Assembly: GCA_028865305.1 (NCBI GenBank)
Contig: JAGWKM010000001.1
Location: 1 to 64,000 of the forward strand
From: Patescibacteria group bacterium
Lineage (GTDB): Bacteria > Patescibacteriota > Minisyncoccia > UBA6257 > 2-01-FULL-56-20
DNA: 64,000 nt
Direction of reading: 5' to 3'
In this document: positions 10,296-62,614 of the stretch, one piece after another
How the letters are laid out: each line of letters starts with the position of its first letter
Numbering within the stretch: position 1 is the first letter of the stretch
The notes under the pieces: generated by a model
The model's database searches: none
Told to the model about the DNA's origin: nothing
What the model saw: only the letters and a program-made list of their open reading frames with translations
Translations under genes and position numbers: made by a program

Positions 10296-11567
10296 TCATT
10301 TCAGCCAGCCGAGATTTTTCATTTTCCGATAAATCCCGGCGTAACCGGCAAGGGTGCCCATAAAATGCTGCGGAATTTTATAGAAACGGGTTCGGGGCGG
10401 TTCGGGGCGGTCGGGGTGAAGGATTTCATGCGCTCCGCCGGCTGTTTTGAATATTTTTGATATTTGAATGATATCGGCGATTGCTTCCGTTTTATATTTT
10501 TCACGAACGGCATCGTTTGGGTGTTCTTGTGCTATTTTTATTTTGACGTAGATGTTTTGCAGAGTGACCCAGGGCCAAATGTAGTGGTTGTGGTATTCAC
10601 CTTGCGGGAAGAGGAAGCGATGAGACCAGTAGATTTGTTTTCGATGGTATGGTGGGTCGAAATTTGCATAGCCTGTTGGCCGTAAAACACGCCTGGCGAG
10701 CGTTTCCTCGACTCTAGCGGCCTCTTTGGCGTCCAAGAGATAAAGAGCGCCAAAAATGGAAGCGACGGTATCCAATCGGCCATCATGTTCTTCGGCTTTG
10801 AAATATCCTTCGGGTGCGTAGAGCTTTTTCAGGATATTGCGGTTAACGGTTTCATATTCTTTTCGGTATTGTTTTGCTTCCTCAATCTGTTTTAATTCCT
10901 CGGCAATATCCGCCATACTTCGCAAACATTCCGCCCACCAGATGTTGATGCCGCCCAACTTACCGTGGCGTTTGATGGTGTCCGCCCAATCAGCATTGTT
11001 TTTGGTGATGATGGCGAGATCGTCCGCCGGATCGGTTTTGGCGCGGAAAAAGTCGACGGCTTTTTGCAATTGGACAAAGTGTTCCTCCGCGAATTTTTTC
11101 CCCTCCGCCGATGATCTGAAAAATTCGCCGACGGCAATCAAAACGACCGGTATGGTGTCCTCTCCGCCGCCGGCATCCTGGCCTTCATAGACCGGCCGTT
11201 CGGTCCGGCTTTTAATTTTGTTAACGAGGACGAAAGCGTGTTTTGCAAGGTGTCGGAATCCTGGCACGAGCTTCAGTTTTTGATATTCGCGCTCGACGCG
11301 GTATGGCAGCATTCCGTTCGGGCGCTGATAGCGGAATATCAGAGCGAGCGATTGTTCAACCGCCTCAGGCCGGACATGTGCGAAGTAATTCCCGGCGGCA
11401 TGAGCCAGGTCGCGTGCCCAGATTTGGTCGTAATAATTGCTTTTCGGATGGGCGGTCGGCGTAATGCCGAATCCCGGTTTGTAGTGCAGGGCAAGCCGGC
11501 CTTCGATTTCGTCGATTAGTTGAAAAACCAATGTTTGGTCGTCGGGCGAAAGCATAAATGTCGTCAC
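10296..11567 (-). CDS. Six-hairpin/GH-type glycosidase-like protein (amylo-alpha-1,6-glucosidase-like)
   Basis: YYDQIWARDLAHAAGNYF, NADWADTIKRHG, YHNHYIWPWVTLQNIY. Confidence 0.65.
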   Translation of the reverse strand: MTTFMLSPDDQTLVFQLIDEIEGRLALHYKPGFGITPTAHPKSNYYDQIWARDLAHAAGNYFAHVRPEAVEQSLALIFRYQRPNGMLPYRVEREYQKLKLVPGFRHLAKHAFVLVNKIKSRTERPVYEGQDAGGGEDTIPVVLIAVGEFFRSSAEGKKFAEEHFVQLQKAVDFFRAKTDPADDLAIITKNNADWADTIKRHGKLGGINIWWAECLRSMADIAEELKQIEEAKQYRKEYETVNRNILKKLYAPEGYFKAEEHDGRLDTVASIFGALYLLDAKEAARVEETLARRVLRPTGYANFDPPYHRKQIYWSHRFLFPQGEYHNHYIWPWVTLQNIYVKIKIAQEHPNDAVREKYKTEAIADIIQISKIFKTAGGAHEILHPDRPEPPRTRFYKIPQHFMGTLAGYAGIYRKMKNLGWLK

Positions 11568-11569
11568 TC

Positions 11570-11785
11570 CTGCCTCCGAGCCTGCCTACCAGCAGGCAGG
11601 CCGGAATCCAGTTTTAGAATATCTAATGTCTAATTAATAATTAATAACGAATGCCCAATGAGAAATGTCCATTGGACATTCTGGCATTAGGCATTCGTTA
11701 TTAATCAGACATTATTAATTAGAAATTTCTCAAACTCTGGATCCCGGGTCAAGCTTGTCTACCGGCAGGCAGCCCCGGGATGACA
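11570..11785. repeat. Dispersed intergenic element, copy 1: GC-rich palindrome caps around an AT-rich heptad-phased hairpin
   Basis: Shares CGAGCCTGCCT...CAGTTTTAGAATATCTAATGTCTAATTAATAATTAATAACGAATG and ATTATTAATTAGAAATTTCTCAAACTCTGGATC with 40730-40955. Confidence 0.9.
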
Positions 11786-13243: not shown

Positions 13244-14431
13244 ATGCGCATAGCTTTATTCTCAGATAATTTTTACCCCGAGCTTTCCGGGATTTCCGAT
13301 TCTCTGATTTCTCTCGCGGAGGAGCTCGCTGCGCGCGGGCATCAGATTCATTTTTATGTGCCGAAATATGCACCGGAAGATTACTCCAAGGCGCGCCAGC
13401 CCTATCGCGAACTGGATTTGGGCCCAAACGTGGCGTTTACGCGTTTTGCCGGGATTCCCTTTAAGACCGGCACCGGGCAGGCGCACGGCGTAATTCCCGA
13501 CGGCCTGCGCCATGCCGCCGTCTGTGATTTCAACCCCGACGTGATCCATACGCAAACCTTTTACGGCCTCGGCGTGGAAGCTCTCATCGAAAGCCGCCGG
13601 CTTCGCGTGCCGCTTGTCGGGACCAACCATACCGCCGTCCGGGAATTTCTGCGCTATATGCCAGTGAAGAGCGAGTGGACCGACAACTTGGTTTTGAAGT
13701 ATGTCAATTGGTATTACAGCCAATGTGTTACGGTCACCGCGCCATCGCAGTCGGTGTTCAGGGAAATGAAAGAGAGCGGCTTCAAAAAAGAGGGTATAGC
13801 GCTCTCAAATCCAATCGCAACCGAAGTTTTCAAACCGCTGCGGGACAAGGCCGCCTTGCGGAAGAAATGGCGGGTTGGCAATTCGGCGATTATCCATGCT
13901 GGCCGTTTGGCGAATGAACGCAGTATCGACGTAATGATCCGGGCGCTGCCGCTGGTGCAAAAAGAAATTCCGGAGGCCGAACTGGTTTTGGCTGGTCGCG
14001 GAGCCGATGAGCAGGAATTGCGGGGGCTTGCCGAATCTCTGAAGGTGGGCGGTTCGGTAAAATTCTTGGGATTCATCGACCAGCCGCATTTGGTTGAAGT
14101 CATGAATGTCGGAAAGGTTTTTGCAATTACGAGTACGGCGGACACGCAGAGCATGGTCATGATGCAGGCAATGGCTTGCGGCATCCCGATTGTTGGCGTG
14201 AACGCCCGGGCATTGCCGGAATACATTAATGCTTCCAATGGTTTTGTAGTCGAGCCGGGGGACGCCGCCGCGCTTGCCCGGAAATTGATCGAGGTCTTGC
14301 GAAATCCTGCATTACGGAAAAAATTGGGAGCCGGAGGAAGGAAAATGGCGGTGCAATTTTCCCCGCCGGCAATTGCCGAACGGTGGGAAGAGATCTATAA
14401 AGGCGCAATCCGCAAATTCAAAGAGCGATGA
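13244..14431 (+). CDS. GT4-family glycosyltransferase
   Basis: MRIALFSDNFYPELSGISDSLISLAEELAARGHQ...; STADTQSMVMMQAMACGIPIVG. Confidence 0.9.
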   Translation: MRIALFSDNFYPELSGISDSLISLAEELAARGHQIHFYVPKYAPEDYSKARQPYRELDLGPNVAFTRFAGIPFKTGTGQAHGVIPDGLRHAAVCDFNPDVIHTQTFYGLGVEALIESRRLRVPLVGTNHTAVREFLRYMPVKSEWTDNLVLKYVNWYYSQCVTVTAPSQSVFREMKESGFKKEGIALSNPIATEVFKPLRDKAALRKKWRVGNSAIIHAGRLANERSIDVMIRALPLVQKEIPEAELVLAGRGADEQELRGLAESLKVGGSVKFLGFIDQPHLVEVMNVGKVFAITSTADTQSMVMMQAMACGIPIVGVNARALPEYINASNGFVVEPGDAAALARKLIEVLRNPALRKKLGAGGRKMAVQFSPPAIAERWEEIYKGAIRKFKER

Positions 14432-14577
14432 AAATGAAGATACCCCGCCCTCACGGACGGGGTATCTTCTCCCTCTTCGCCGCCCCGGAGGGGCGGCGTC
14501 CCACCGGCCAAAGCGCCGGCGGGACCAAACTTCATCCGCACCCTTATGGGTGCGGTTTTAAGTTTGGAGAGTGATAA
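14429..14577 (+). ncRNA. Multi-hairpin 3'-UTR/convergent-gene element, copy 1
   Basis: Four stems: AAGATACCCCG../..CGGGGTATCTT; CGCCGCCCC/GGGGCGGCG; GTCCCACCGGC/GCCGGCGGGAC; CCAAACTT..CCGCACCC/GGGTGCGG..AAGTTTGG; near-identical inverted copy at 40082-40228. Confidence 0.85.
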
Positions 14578-14601
14578 AAAAAACGCCCACGCGGGGCGTC
14601 G
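14573..14601 (-). terminator. Terminator for the minus-strand gene 14606-15226
   Basis: Minus strand: ACGCCCCGCGTGGGCGT followed by TTTTTTT. Confidence 0.8.
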
Positions 14602-38616: not shown

Positions 38617-39606
38617 TCAGAACATCCGTTCTTGGATATTTTTCGGTTTTTCGGGATTTGATTTTTTCTTAGTCGCTCCAGTTCCATTCTCCATTCTCCC
38701 TTCTCTATTCTCCTCATTTTTCTCCATTCTCTTCAGCAGCGTCGCGAATCCTTTCTTCTGGAAATAATCTATGGTTTCGAGGGGGATTGCTTCGGGGGTT
38801 GCGAGACCCTCGAGCGGGGGAATTTCGATGGGAACATGTTTTTCGAGGAGGACGAGTTCTTTTGAGAGCTCGGCTTCCTTTTTGAATGGCGCGAGGCGGG
38901 ATTGGACGTTTGCGGGCTCGCCGGGGAGTTTGGCGTAAAGGTTTTCTATGGTGCCGAATTTTTCGATGAGTTCGAGCGCGCGCTTGGGGCCGATGCCGGG
39001 GACGCCCTTGATATTGTCTGACGAGTCGCCGACAAGGGCTTTATAGTCGATCAACTGCTTTGGCTTCAGGGAATATTTTTCAAAAACGGCTGCTTCGTCG
39101 TAGGTCGTCGTGTCGCTGATGCCCTTGTTGAACGTGCGGACATAAATTTTTTCGTCTTCGACGAGCTGCAAGGTGTCGCGATCCCCGGTCAGAATAATTA
39201 TTTTGAGTTCCTTTCCTTGTTCCTTGTTCCTTGTTCCTTGTTCCTTAAAACACTCCGCGAACGTCGCAATCAAATCATCCGCTTCGAAACCGGCCATTTC
39301 GAACGTTTTGACGCCGAATGTTTGGAAAAGATTTTTTGCTTCCTTCAGCTGTATGACCAATGCATCGGCGGTCGCGGGCCGCTGAGCTTTATATGCCGCG
39401 TATTTTTTGTCGCGGAAGGTGGGCTCGGGCCGGTCGAAAAGCGCGGCGGCGTAATCGGGCCGGTCTTCGCGCCAGAGTTTGAGAAGGATGCTCGCGAGGC
39501 CGTAGATCGCGCCCGTGGGTTCTCCGGCAGGATCGGTGAACGGCGGCAGGGCGTGGAACGAGCGGTGGATGATGGAATTGGCGTCGATGAGGAGCAGGGT
39601 TTTCAT
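38617..39606 (-). CDS. 5'-3' exonuclease (PolI N-terminal-domain type)
   Basis: LLLIDANSIIHRSFHALPP...FEADDLIATFA...TGDRDTLQLV...GDSSDNIKGVPGIGPKRALELI. Confidence 0.94.
   Translation of the reverse strand: MKTLLLIDANSIIHRSFHALPPFTDPAGEPTGAIYGLASILLKLWREDRPDYAAALFDRPEPTFRDKKYAAYKAQRPATADALVIQLKEAKNLFQTFGVKTFEMAGFEADDLIATFAECFKEQGTRNKEQGKELKIIILTGDRDTLQLVEDEKIYVRTFNKGISDTTTYDEAAVFEKYSLKPKQLIDYKALVGDSSDNIKGVPGIGPKRALELIEKFGTIENLYAKLPGEPANVQSRLAPFKKEAELSKELVLLEKHVPIEIPPLEGLATPEAIPLETIDYFQKKGFATLLKRMEKNEENREGRMENGTGATKKKSNPEKPKNIQERMF
39205..39246. repeat. Heptamer array (GTTCCTT)n inside the exonuclease gene
   Basis: gttcctt x4 tandem plus degenerate units; encodes KEQGTRNKEQGK on minus. Confidence 0.95.
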
Positions 39607-40050: not shown

Positions 40051-40060
40051 GCCGGATTTG

Positions 40061-40085
40061 GCCGGTCGAAAGACCGGCTTTTTTA
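40061..40085 (+). terminator. Rho-independent terminator
   Basis: GCCGGTCGAAAGACCGGC followed by TTTTTT. Confidence 0.88.
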
Positions 40086-40228
40086 TCACTTTCCAAACTT
40101 AAAACCGCACCCATAAGGGTGCGGATGAAGTTTTGTCCCACCGGCGCTTTGGCCGGTGGGACGCCGCCCCTCCGGGGCGGCGAAGAGGGAGAAGATACCC
40201 CGTCCGTGAGGGCGGGGTATCTTCATTT
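40082..40228 (-). ncRNA. Multi-hairpin 3'-UTR/convergent-gene element, copy 2
   Basis: Near-identical inverted copy of 14429-14577; supplies the tsaE stop codon. Confidence 0.85.
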
Positions 40229-40714
40229 CATCGCTATCCTGCGTTCGTTCTCTTTTTTGCCGTGCGTGAATTTCAGCCAAATGGTTCCTTTCGGCAAAAT
40301 TTTCCTGATCCGCTCCGGCCATTCGATGAGAATAAGATTTTCCGGGTTGGAGAGAATAAGTTTGAATTCCAGTGCTTCCAGGTTTTCGGCTTTTTTCAAC
40401 CGGTAAGCGTCAAAGTGGTAAAGGTTTTTAAAGTGCGGCCCCGTTCTCCGTTCTCCATTCTCCATTCTCCGTCTTCGGCTGATTTCATATCTTCGCATGA
40501 TAATGAAGGTCGGGCTTACGGCGCGGCGCTTGATGCCAAAGCCGCGGAGGAACCCCTGGGTAAAGGTGGTTTTCCCGGCGCCGAGGTCGCCCTGGAGCGC
40601 GATGACAGTGGCGCCCGAAATTGCCAATGGCCGATTGCGAATGGCTAATTCGCGCGCCAGTTCCTCGCCTAATTTCTGCGTTTCTTCGGCGGAACGGGTT
40701 TTGTTGGTTTTCAT
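40223..40714 (-). CDS. tsaE: tRNA t6A biosynthesis ATPase TsaE
   Basis: VIALQGDLGAGKTTFTQGFLRGFGI...VSPTFIIMRRYE...NLYHFDAYRL. Confidence 0.93.
   Translation of the reverse strand: MKTNKTRSAEETQKLGEELARELAIRNRPLAISGATVIALQGDLGAGKTTFTQGFLRGFGIKRRAVSPTFIIMRRYEISRRRRMENGERRTGPHFKNLYHFDAYRLKKAENLEALEFKLILSNPENLILIEWPERIRKILPKGTIWLKFTHGKKENERRIAMK
40440..40474. repeat. Heptamer array (TCCATTC)n inside tsaE
   Basis: cccgttc|tccgttc|tccattc|tccattc|tccgtct; encodes RMENGERRTG between conserved TsaE motifs. Confidence 0.9.
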
Positions 40715-40729
40715 AATAATTGTCATTCC

Positions 40730-40955
40730 GGCCACCGAGCCTGCCTGCCGGCAGGCAGACCGGAATTCAGTTTTAGAATATCTAATGTCTAATTAATAAT
40801 TAATAACGAATGTCCAATATTAAATTTCCAACGGACATCCGGACATTATCCATTCGTTATTAATTAGATATTATTAATTAGACATTGTCCCAATAATGCA
40901 TTCGTTATTAATTAGTCATTATTAATTAGAAATTTCTCAAACTCTGGATCTCGGG
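40730..40955. repeat. Dispersed intergenic element, copy 2 (see 11570-11785), with an extra internal unit
   Basis: Long near-identical ends with copy 1; internal CATTCGTTATTAATTAG unit repeated. Confidence 0.9.
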
Positions 40956-41008
40956 TCTTGCTGTCGTCGAGCTATAATTGGGCGCAGCAATCCTGGGGCG
41001 GCAGAAAA

Positions 41009-53972: not shown

Positions 53973-54024
53973 GCTCGTCATTTTCAAGGAAAGGTAGCGG
54001 CCGGAACGATTTTCCGGCCGTCCA
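53973..54024. repeat. Dispersed repeat F copy 1, ending in a hairpin
   Basis: CTCGTCATTTTCA..GGTAGCGGCCGGA..TCCGGCCGTC also at 55350-55405. Confidence 0.85.
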
Positions 54025-54064
54025 TAATTGAACTGCTATTTTCTGCATTTCGCGAAGACGGAGA

Positions 54065-55349: not shown

Positions 55350-55405
55350 CTACACTCGTCATTTTCAGTTGAAAAGGTAGCGGCCGGAGCAATGCTCCGG
55401 CCGTC
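55350..55405. repeat. Dispersed repeat F copy 2
   Basis: See 53973-54024. Confidence 0.85.
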
Positions 55406-55962
55406 TATTTATCATCTCGGCCTTTGAGCCGGGATCCTTGCTTCCCAAATTTTATCGTCATCCCGAGGCATTCGTCACCATGTTCGCTCACTTGATAGGC
55501 AATGTTAATTATTTTTCCCTTTCGGGCTATTCCTTTTAATAGTAATTGGTAATCGATTTTATCCCTAAAAAGAAGATTAATAATAACCAAGTATTTGGTT
55601 TTTATGGAAAAAAGTGAAGCCAATATGTCCGCGAATTTGTTTTTCCCGAATTTTTCGGCTTCGCCGAGGAAAAGATGTGCGAGGACAAGATCAACTTTCC
55701 GGTTCCTGAAGTTTTTGATGTCGCTTTCGATGATTTTGTAGTTCTTTTCCGGCACGCACTCCAAAATCGGCTGGATTTTCCGCTCGTCGCCGGGGTAGAC
55801 GACGGCCTGAACTATATTTTTGGGAAATCGATGCGCTAAATAATGGATGCTTGTCCGTCCGGCACCCATATCAATAACCTTCTTTATTTCAGGATTCCTG
55901 ATGTCCGCGAAGAGGGTATCCAGGAGTTTTTTCTGTGATTTGCTGATTTTCCATGCCGACAT
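55405..55962 (-). CDS. Hypothetical protein (methyltransferase-like fold possible)
   Basis: EIKKVIDMGAGRTSIHYLAHRF resembles motif I. Confidence 0.6.
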   Translation of the reverse strand: MSAWKISKSQKKLLDTLFADIRNPEIKKVIDMGAGRTSIHYLAHRFPKNIVQAVVYPGDERKIQPILECVPEKNYKIIESDIKNFRNRKVDLVLAHLFLGEAEKFGKNKFADILASLFSIKTKYLVIINLLFRDKIDYQLLLKGIARKGKIINIAYQVSEHGDECLGMTIKFGKQGSRLKGRDDK

Positions 55963-58276: not shown

Positions 58277-58358
58277 CGGAGAATGGAGTACGGAGTATGG
58301 AGAATGAATGTCCCATTCTCCATTCTCCATTCTCCATTCTCCATTCTCCATTCTCCAT
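58276..58358. repeat. Heptamer array forming a hairpin upstream of holA: (GGAGAATn)-type left arm, (CATTCTC)x6 right arm
   Basis: acggaga|atggagt|acggagt|atggaga|atgaatg|tcccatt|ctccatt x4. Confidence 0.95.
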
Positions 58359-59139
58359 GATCATCTTCCTCTATGGTTCCGACGACTATCGCCGGATCCA
58401 AAAGAAACGCGAATTGATTGCCGAGTTCGAGAAGAAGCATTCCGGTTTGGGTATCGGCAATTTTGATTTTGCGGCCAAGGAGGGGATTGATGCCTTCGAG
58501 GGGTTCATGCGCAACCAGTCCATTTTTGAAACCGCGAAGCTTGCAGCCATAGACAATGCTTTTGAAGCCGATGCGAAACAGCTTGCAAAATTGCTTCAGC
58601 CGTTTCTGAACGATAAAGCGGCCAGCATTTTACTCGCGGAGCGGGAAAAACCGGTGAAGGCGCTCGGATTCCTCATCGAGAAGCCGGCATTTTTCCAAAA
58701 ATTTGAGAATTTGGAAGGCGCCGCGTGGGAACAGTTCATCAATGCGGAAGCAAAAGATTCGGGCTTGCATCTCGCTTCCGATGCCGTCCGTTTTCTCGCT
58801 GCCGTTTACCAAGGCAATTCCTGGGCGCTTGCGACTGAACTCCGAAAATTGAGCGCGTGGGGCATGGGGCGGCCTATCAGTAAAAAGGATTTGGACATGC
58901 TGGATCTCGAAGCGGCGCCAAACTATTGGATGCTGTTGAATGGCATGAAAGCGCCCGATGTCCGGACGCGTTTGTACGCATTTGAAAAATTGATGGCGTT
59001 GAACGATCCGCCGGCGAAATTATTCAACATTCTGGCTTCGCAATGGAATGCAAAACTTGCGCAGTTCGCCGAGTATGATTTTGCGGTTAAATCCGGGAAA
59101 CTGGAATACGACGATGCATTGCTGGATGCCATTTTGTAA
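58357..59139 (+). CDS. holA: DNA polymerase III subunit delta
   Basis: MIIFLYGSDDYRRIQKKRELIAEF...; length and context. Confidence 0.8.
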   Translation: MIIFLYGSDDYRRIQKKRELIAEFEKKHSGLGIGNFDFAAKEGIDAFEGFMRNQSIFETAKLAAIDNAFEADAKQLAKLLQPFLNDKAASILLAEREKPVKALGFLIEKPAFFQKFENLEGAAWEQFINAEAKDSGLHLASDAVRFLAAVYQGNSWALATELRKLSAWGMGRPISKKDLDMLDLEAAPNYWMLLNGMKAPDVRTRLYAFEKLMALNDPPAKLFNILASQWNAKLAQFAEYDFAVKSGKLEYDDALLDAIL

Positions 59140-61160: not shown

Positions 61161-62453
61161 ATGACAAAAAAACCGATGTCCAGACTAAAAAAAATTTTCT
61201 ACAACTTTCCCGGTCTCTTTTCGACTTACCATTTCCTCTGGGCGTGGGCGGGCGCAAGGTTGCACGGTCATCCAAGCGGGAAAATTTTTGTCATCGGTGT
61301 TACCGGTACGAAGGGCAAGACGACGACCTTGGAGCTCGTGAATGCGGTACTTGAAGCCGCTGGCAAAAAGACCGCGCTCCTTTCCTCGCTCCGCGAAAAG
61401 ATCGGTGATGAAAGCCGCAAAAACACGGCAGGCAATTCCATGCCCGGCCGCGGTTATATCCAAAAGTTTTTGGATCGCGCCGTCCGGGCCGGCTGCAGCT
61501 ACGCGCTCGTTGAAGTTACCTCGCAAGGCGTCGTTGCTCATCGGCATCGCTTCGTCGATTGGAATATGGGAGTTTTCACGAACATCCATCCCGAGCACAT
61601 TGAATCGCATGGCTCGTTCGAGAATTACCGCAAGGCGAAATTGGATTTTTTAAAATACGTCCTCAAAAAAGGCGGTATGGTTTTCATCAACCGCGACGAT
61701 CCGTCTTATGCCTTCATGAAACTGGCGCTCGAAGGCAGGGCGATGGAATTCACAAAAGAAGACGATTGGCTCAAAAATTATTTGCCAAAACTGCAAACGC
61801 CGGTCCGGTCGGCGGCGGGATCCGCGCGGAAATTCTGGCTGAGCGGTTTCAACGAAGAAAACATTGCCGTTGCGGCTGCGATCGCGCACGAATTGGGCAT
61901 CAATGACCGCATTGTCGAACAGGGGATTATGGGCTTCCAGGGCGTGCCGGGCCGGATGGAATTCGTATCGGCGGGCGGTTATACGGCAATCGTCGATTAT
62001 GCCCACACGCCGGAGTCGCTCGAGGCGGCGTATGGTGCGGCGCGGAGCGTTATGGAAGACAGGGGGCAGGGCGCATCCTCTAAGCTTATCTGCGTTCTCG
62101 GTGCGGCGGGCGGCGGGCGCGACAAATGGAAGCGGCCCGAATTCGGTAAAATCGCGGCGCATTATTGCGACCGGATCATTTTGACGGACGAAGATCCGTA
62201 CGATGAGGATCCGGAAAAGATTTTAGATGAAGTGGAGGAAGGCATCAAATCGGTGCCTTACCCGCGCCCCGAGGTGCTGCGGATCCTGGACCGCCGGAAA
62301 GCGATCGAGCGAGCGGTGTGGTTTATGAATGAAGGCGATCTCGTGATCGGCACGGGCAAAGGCAGTGAAGATTGGATTCATGTGGCGAAAGGGAGGAAAA
62401 TCCCGTGGAGCGAGCGGCGCGCGTTCGAAGACGCGCTCTTGGGTAAAAAATGA
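61161..62453 (+). CDS. Mur ligase family protein (MurE-like)
   Basis: VIGVTGTKGKTTTLELVNAVLEAAGKKTALLSS...NIHPEHIESHGSFENYRKAK...DYAHTPESLEAAY. Confidence 0.93.
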   Translation: MTKKPMSRLKKIFYNFPGLFSTYHFLWAWAGARLHGHPSGKIFVIGVTGTKGKTTTLELVNAVLEAAGKKTALLSSLREKIGDESRKNTAGNSMPGRGYIQKFLDRAVRAGCSYALVEVTSQGVVAHRHRFVDWNMGVFTNIHPEHIESHGSFENYRKAKLDFLKYVLKKGGMVFINRDDPSYAFMKLALEGRAMEFTKEDDWLKNYLPKLQTPVRSAAGSARKFWLSGFNEENIAVAAAIAHELGINDRIVEQGIMGFQGVPGRMEFVSAGGYTAIVDYAHTPESLEAAYGAARSVMEDRGQGASSKLICVLGAAGGGRDKWKRPEFGKIAAHYCDRIILTDEDPYDEDPEKILDEVEEGIKSVPYPRPEVLRILDRRKAIERAVWFMNEGDLVIGTGKGSEDWIHVAKGRKIPWSERRAFEDALLGKK

Positions 62454-62569
62454 AGATACTTTTTTCGCCGCTCCGCGGAGCGGCGTCCCATTGGCACGGG
62501 CGTCGATGGGATTAAGCTCCATTCTCTTCCTCGTGGAGTGGAGTTTTAGTCCGGAGAGAGATAAAAAAA
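62448..62569 (+). ncRNA. Multi-hairpin 3'-UTR/convergent-gene element, divergent copy 3
   Basis: AAATGAAGATAC start overlapping the stop codon; CGCCGCTCC/GGAGCGGCG; GTCCCATTGGC/GTCGATGGGAT; AAGCTCCATTCT/GGAGTGGAGTTTT. Confidence 0.75.
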
Positions 62570-62614
62570 GCGCACCCGGAGGCGCGCGCGAAACGTTTTT
62601 TGAAAAATGGTTGT

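Follow-up and report, generated by a model that had tools for sequence, protein, structure and literature searches.

A putative transposase-less IS200/IS605-type mini-element of Patescibacteria with co-varying guide and cleavage tetramers and a tendency to lie at gene ends

The PATEs are defined as transposase-free elements without terminal inverted repeats, which possess IS605-like palindromes close to their termini and generate no target duplication (PMC3119063). In IS608 the hairpins bound by the transposase TnpA are formed by one strand, and the guides situated just 5' of them pair with the cleavage tetramers, namely AAAG with TTAC and GAAT with TCAA (PMC5934647). Elements of a further type, bcr1 of the Bacillus cereus group, are about 150 bp long, structured and MITE-like with a mobility-linked TTTAT motif, and their mobility has been described as recombination-like (PMC6542083, PMC3446304). 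Here we describe an element found in three copies in the window, i.e. the whole stretch of 64,000 nt that was analyzed (positions 1 to 64,000 of contig JAGWKM010000001.1 in the Patescibacteria assembly GCA_028865305.1). Comparison of its copies and relatives indicates that it is very probably a mobile IS200/IS605-type element lacking a transposase, a PATE, belonging to a family scattered through the class. The family is new but its kind is already known, and the points of interest are its proposed stop-preserving insertion and its natural guide variants.

With the PATEs of Haloquadratum walsbyi the element shares the lack of a transposase gene and of terminal inverted repeats, the IS605-like near-terminal palindromes and the occurrence of near-identical dispersed copies, but it differs in host domain and sequence, and strain-specific empty sites are known for the H. 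walsbyi elements (PMC3119063). It resembles IS608 and ISDra2 in having left-end (LE) and right-end (RE) hairpins on the same strand, a probable insertion 3' of a short target and guides 5' of the hairpins, and the IS608 pair TTAC/AAAG also recurs in one relative (L254). Unlike these insertion sequences, however, it is a mini-element without tnpA or tnpB, its target is TTTAT and its right end terminates in TCAT instead of TCAA. The likeness to bcr1, compared by description, lies in the size, structure, MITE-like character and TTTAT motif. The REP/TnpA-REP systems have the Y1 enzyme family and palindromes in common with it, but REPs are single short palindromes, unlike the mini-element, and the resident enzymes in these genomes carry other palindromes.

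The preliminary description of the window had noted a three-copy, multi-hairpin element of about 145 nt, beginning over or beside the TGA stop of an upstream gene and ending against the terminator of an opposing one. The three copies proved to be real and their ends could be refined. The shared sequence extends exactly from ATGAAGATAC to (GTG/GAG)ATAAA, with flanks that are unrelated from the first outside base, and measured from ATGAAG to ATAAA the copies span 14434-14578, 40082-40226 and 62450-62565 (Table 1). Over 150 nt, copies 1 and 2 share 98% identity, and copy 3, with 71% identity in the aligned part only, lacks the first hairpin except for its initial 10 nt. The four successive hairpins originally ascribed to the element are present in copies 1 and 2 (single-strand folds, z = -9.2 and -9.7 relative to shuffles) but not in copy 3, which folds into three (z = -4.7). 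Their placement was as first described: the stops of tsaE (copy 2) and the Mur ligase gene (copy 3) are the TGA within the ATGA of the element, the stop of the GT4 gene is located 2 nt ahead of copy 1, and in all three cases the 3' end adjoins a terminator-like hairpin of the opposing gene, the T-tract of which continues into TTTAT. Pfam searches confirmed the neighboring genes as GT4, TsaE and Mur ligase (M and C), and returned no match for the opposing 206-aa and 119-aa ORFs.

Table 1. Coordinates of the mini-element copies in the window and of their component parts
Feature	Position	Strand	Remarks
Copy 1 of the mini-element, LE to RE	14434..14573	-	Flank comparison, end geometry
Copy 1, target pentamer TTTAT in flank (ATAAA on +)	14574..14578	-	Left cleavage tetramer CL = TTAT
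Copy 1, left-end hairpin	14536..14555	-	8 bp, 4-nt loop
Copy 1, left guide GL = AAAA (TTTT on +)	14556..14559	-	Scheme from PMC5934647
Copy 1, middle segment with two more hairpins	14470..14526	-	Length and sequence differ among family members
Copy 1, right guide GR = GATA	14463..14466	-	
Copy 1, right-end hairpin	14443..14462	-	8 bp with one mismatch, 4-nt loop
Copy 1, right cleavage tetramer CR = TCAT (ATGA on +)	14434..14437	-	
Terminator-like hairpin of opposing gene beside copy 1	14582..14600	-	T-tract enters TTTAT target
Copy 2 of the mini-element, LE to RE	40087..40226	+	TTTAT target 40082-40086
Copy 2, CR providing tsaE stop TGA	40225-40223	-	
Opposing terminator-like hairpin beside copy 2	40060..40079	+	
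Copy 3, divergent, without right-end hairpin	62450..62560	-	TTTAT target 62561-62565
Copy 3, CR providing Mur ligase stop TGA	62451-62453		
Opposing terminator-like hairpin beside copy 3	62570..62587	-	

A bin-wide search recovered 11 copies, eight of them beyond the three first noted in the window: nine are full-length and 98-100% alike, one is a partial copy at a contig edge and one is the 71% identical copy 3. These dispersed, near-identical copies have unrelated flanks directly outside ATGAAG...ATAAA, and such a loss of similarity right outside shared ends is a signature of dispersed mobile sequence. In four copies (L007 tsaE, L008, L009 and L011 Mur ligase) an ORF of 80 aa or more uses the TGA of ATGA as its stop, and in two others (L001 and L006) a stop codon finishes 2 nt ahead of the element. 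The remaining five lie 86 nt beyond a gene, in the gap separating other genes or a short distance ahead of a gene start. Across the class the stop is shared by seven of 33 readable members and directly precedes the element in four more; roughly two thirds of the copies are away from any stop, some being upstream of genes or between co-directional genes. Thus, the copies elsewhere largely go against the consistent placement at stops that had been proposed, and the stop/convergence rule is a tendency that is most marked in the three copies of the window.

As background for this tendency we used the ATAAA sites in the window at which an insertion would break no gene, 15% of which are TAA stops. 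Stop sharing is not clearly above this value either in the bin (p = 0.06) or in the class (p = 0.2), whereas the six of 11 bin copies at a stop or within 3 nt of one stand against 17% of the tolerated sites (p = 0.005). A terminator-like stem is located just past the 3' end of 11/34 copies, as opposed to 1/34 on the 5' side and 3/39 background sites (p = 0.008). The excess close to stops, the strong single-strand structure and the terminator-like form that one end hairpin takes on the gene strand all speak for a functional 3'-end RNA element or a bidirectional insulator selected at gene ends. We nevertheless consider this very unlikely, because copies also occur upstream of genes and between co-directional genes, family-wide stop sharing is not above expectation, near-identical copies in unrelated flanks point to mobility and the conservation of the ends follows the guide/cleavage rules set out below.

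When read on the strand opposite to that of the preliminary description, the members with clear ends have the same layout: TTTAT, 16-18 nt, an 8-bp LE hairpin, a variable middle, an 8-bp RE hairpin, 8-9 nt and TTCAT. Both hairpins are on the same strand, have 4-nt loops and are at constant distances from the ends, and terminal inverted repeats are absent (TTTAT followed by CACTCTCC on the left versus TATCTTCAT on the right). The boundaries were set from paralogue flanks together with this end geometry; TTTAT is kept in nearly all flanks, and it can be assigned to either the flank or the element. The opposite reading, on the strand first described and with ATGA as target, was rejected in favor of this IS608-like layout, as the hairpin would touch the cleavage site and the guide would not fit.

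The guide tetramer ahead of each hairpin co-varies with the cleavage tetramer of its own end. The usual pairs are TTAT/AAnA on the left and TCAT/GATA on the right, and natural variants include TTAC/AAAG in G511, TTAC/GAAG and TCAC/GATG in G678, TTAA/AATT in two elements, CTAT/AGTA in G671 and G691, and TCGT/GACA in a weaker member from G016. The fourth positions of left cleavage and guide tetramers (CL4-GL4) are complementary in 18/18 rows (permutation p = 3.5e-5) and in 8/8 distinct combinations (p = 0.006), the latter count removing shared descent only in part. Right-end pairing over the four positions jointly gives p = 5.5e-5 (17 rows), with one exception in L254 (TCAC/GAAA), and the signal is gone when the register is shifted by one; the register itself, guide i against cleavage i, was taken from the published tetramer order of IS608 rather than from a structure of this system. 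A swapped control, CR4-GL4, also gave p = 0.0065, since in two genera both ends had changed, and the permutation values therefore overstate the case for pairing somewhat. The preliminary description had listed a mobile element targeting stop codons among its three suggestions: the dispersed copies and the end geometry argue for the mobility, but the target appears to be TTTAT/TTAT, read by the guide tetramer, and not the stop codon.

These features suggest a mechanism in which a Y1 (HUH) TnpA, acting in trans, would cut a single strand after TTAT at the left end and after TCAT at the right end. The excised element would then move as a single-stranded circle and reinsert 3' of another TTTAT, leaving the target unduplicated. 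Such TTTAT sites would be offered by terminator T-tracts, placing the element between convergent genes, and the continuation of the opposing T-tract into TTTAT in the window copies would explain their convergent setting. As TTTAT corresponds to ATAAA on the gene strand, a TAA stop located there would be replaced by an in-frame TGA from the ATGA of the element. Rejoining the flanks illustrates this: the Mur ligase gene at copy 3 would have ended in GGT AAA AAA TAA and now reads GGT AAA AAA TGA, and the predicted GCG ATG AAA TAA of tsaE at copy 2 now ends in TGA. Such a swap leaves the protein unchanged and insertion at a stop would thus be tolerated; the association with stop codons is then probably a by-product of the TAA stop that ATAAA opposite TTTAT can contain. 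More tentatively, and with rather low probability, the likeness of TTCAT to TTTAT may have been kept for the harmless TAA-to-TGA swap, with some copies later serving as terminators or insulators. If so, gene ends and terminators would be safe landing sites in the compact genomes of Patescibacteria. The swap would allow a mobile element to land harmlessly on stop codons in a simple way, and the example warns that conserved multi-hairpin elements at 3' ends may turn out to be mobile DNA and not regulatory RNA.

A cognate transposase was not found in the bin, where the single Y1 gene detected is a REP-associated one whose hairpins differ, making present mobility of the element there doubtful. This gene (L028:1250-2100, on contig 158 of G000) is bordered and interrupted by copies of the palindrome GAAGACCGTCTTCGAAGACGGTCTTC. 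Its presence raises the alternative that the element is a REP or REPIN mobilized by a resident REP-associated tyrosine transposase, but we regard this as extremely improbable, given that the resident gene and its relatives bear different palindromes at their own borders and that the element, unlike a REP pair, has two distinct ends with separate guides. Y1 genes were detected in 12/17 element-bearing genomes, and were absent from the other five, versus 5/17 others searched, an uneven comparison to which we give no weight. Nearly all Y1 genes of these 34 genomes are REP-associated types bordered by other palindromes, and the exact autonomous partner of the window element was not found among them.

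The exception is a complete IS200-type element in G691 (L274:1390-1960) with identical hairpins at both ends and a 147-aa TnpA, which matches PF01797 (5e-33) and the structures of the IS608 and ISDra2 TnpA (E 3e-9 to 2e-16). The right end of this element, GATA-hairpin-AGGGTCAT, has the guide and cleavage tetramer (GATA/TCAT) and the 8-nt stem spacing of the mini-elements, whereas its left pair, TTAA/AATT, and left stem differ from those of the window element. In G499 a second mini-element (L266, minus strand, about 2000-1710) lies beside the first in opposite orientation, with TTAA/AATT and GATA/TCAT, and its TTAA ends the T-tract of an intrinsic terminator. The L274 and L266 elements indicate both orientation and enzyme class, but neither represents the exact partner of the window element.

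A covariance model derived from the bin copies and one relative matched 17 of the 383 genomes of the class, including the window's own, with at most four copies in each of the others and, in two (G669 and G500), an element without clear ends. The family members, about 116-255 nt long, are too small to code for a transposase, and none encloses a transposase gene. The near-identical elements of G486 and G502, which belong to different families, point to horizontal spread. Two-sided changes were seen in all seven helices of the model, and 91% of cells are paired, compared with 43-50% after sliding; as the alignment behind these values had been fitted to the structure and contains some partial matches on the reverse strand, it is supporting evidence only. 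Recognition of hairpin DNA ends by a transposase would account for this class-wide covariation, and a role as RNA or insulator is not needed. A transposase-less IS200/IS605-type family on this scale in the little-studied Patescibacteria would, through its natural guide and cleavage variants, extend the rules known from IS608. Termite-gut Treponema loci also matched the model (E about 1e-8), and hairpins with the same GATA/TCAT right end in Treponema bins (L024, L026 and L027), outside Patescibacteria, suggest a wider range for the family. Relatives were not found by blastn against plasmids and phages, and end-pattern searches of viral contigs gave chance matches only.

The 3' ATAAA of the element equals a published target-adjacent motif of IscB (PMC13180657), and its size and structure are similar in kind to those of IscB/HEARO transposons, so that it might be a derivative of these, the structured part being a guide RNA scaffold. 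This too seems most unlikely: Rfam searches yielded no match to HEARO (RF02033) at E up to 10, and whether run at gathering or at relaxed thresholds they gave nothing beyond weak sRNA matches that stayed under the gathering scores. No credible RRXRR domain was found in the bin, in those other element-bearing genomes that were searched or across 379 genomes of the phylum, which is weak evidence of absence as the control genomes of the RRXRR family were also silent; a single RRXRR match, in L168, was rejected as spurious.

The G000 bin, at 1.99 Mb with 8% contamination, may be a mixture of two organisms, family relatives being mostly 0.4-1.0 Mb. The window holds several other repeats. Positions 2-237 and 526-550 contain seven copies of TGTTTGCCGCCAAACAT, six spaced by 36-48 nt and one farther off, and an AT-rich dispersed repeat with many ATTCGTTATTAATTAG units occurs at 11553-11755 and 40712-40962 (85% identity over 175 nt). 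Two 36-nt hairpin copies, AAAGGTAGCGGCCGGA...CCGGCCGTC, that are 86% alike lie at 53990-54025 and 55373-55408. Short tandem repeats of the GGAGAATGGAGAATG type are present at 38681-38713, 40438-40470 and 58310-58370, one of them within the tsaE reading frame.
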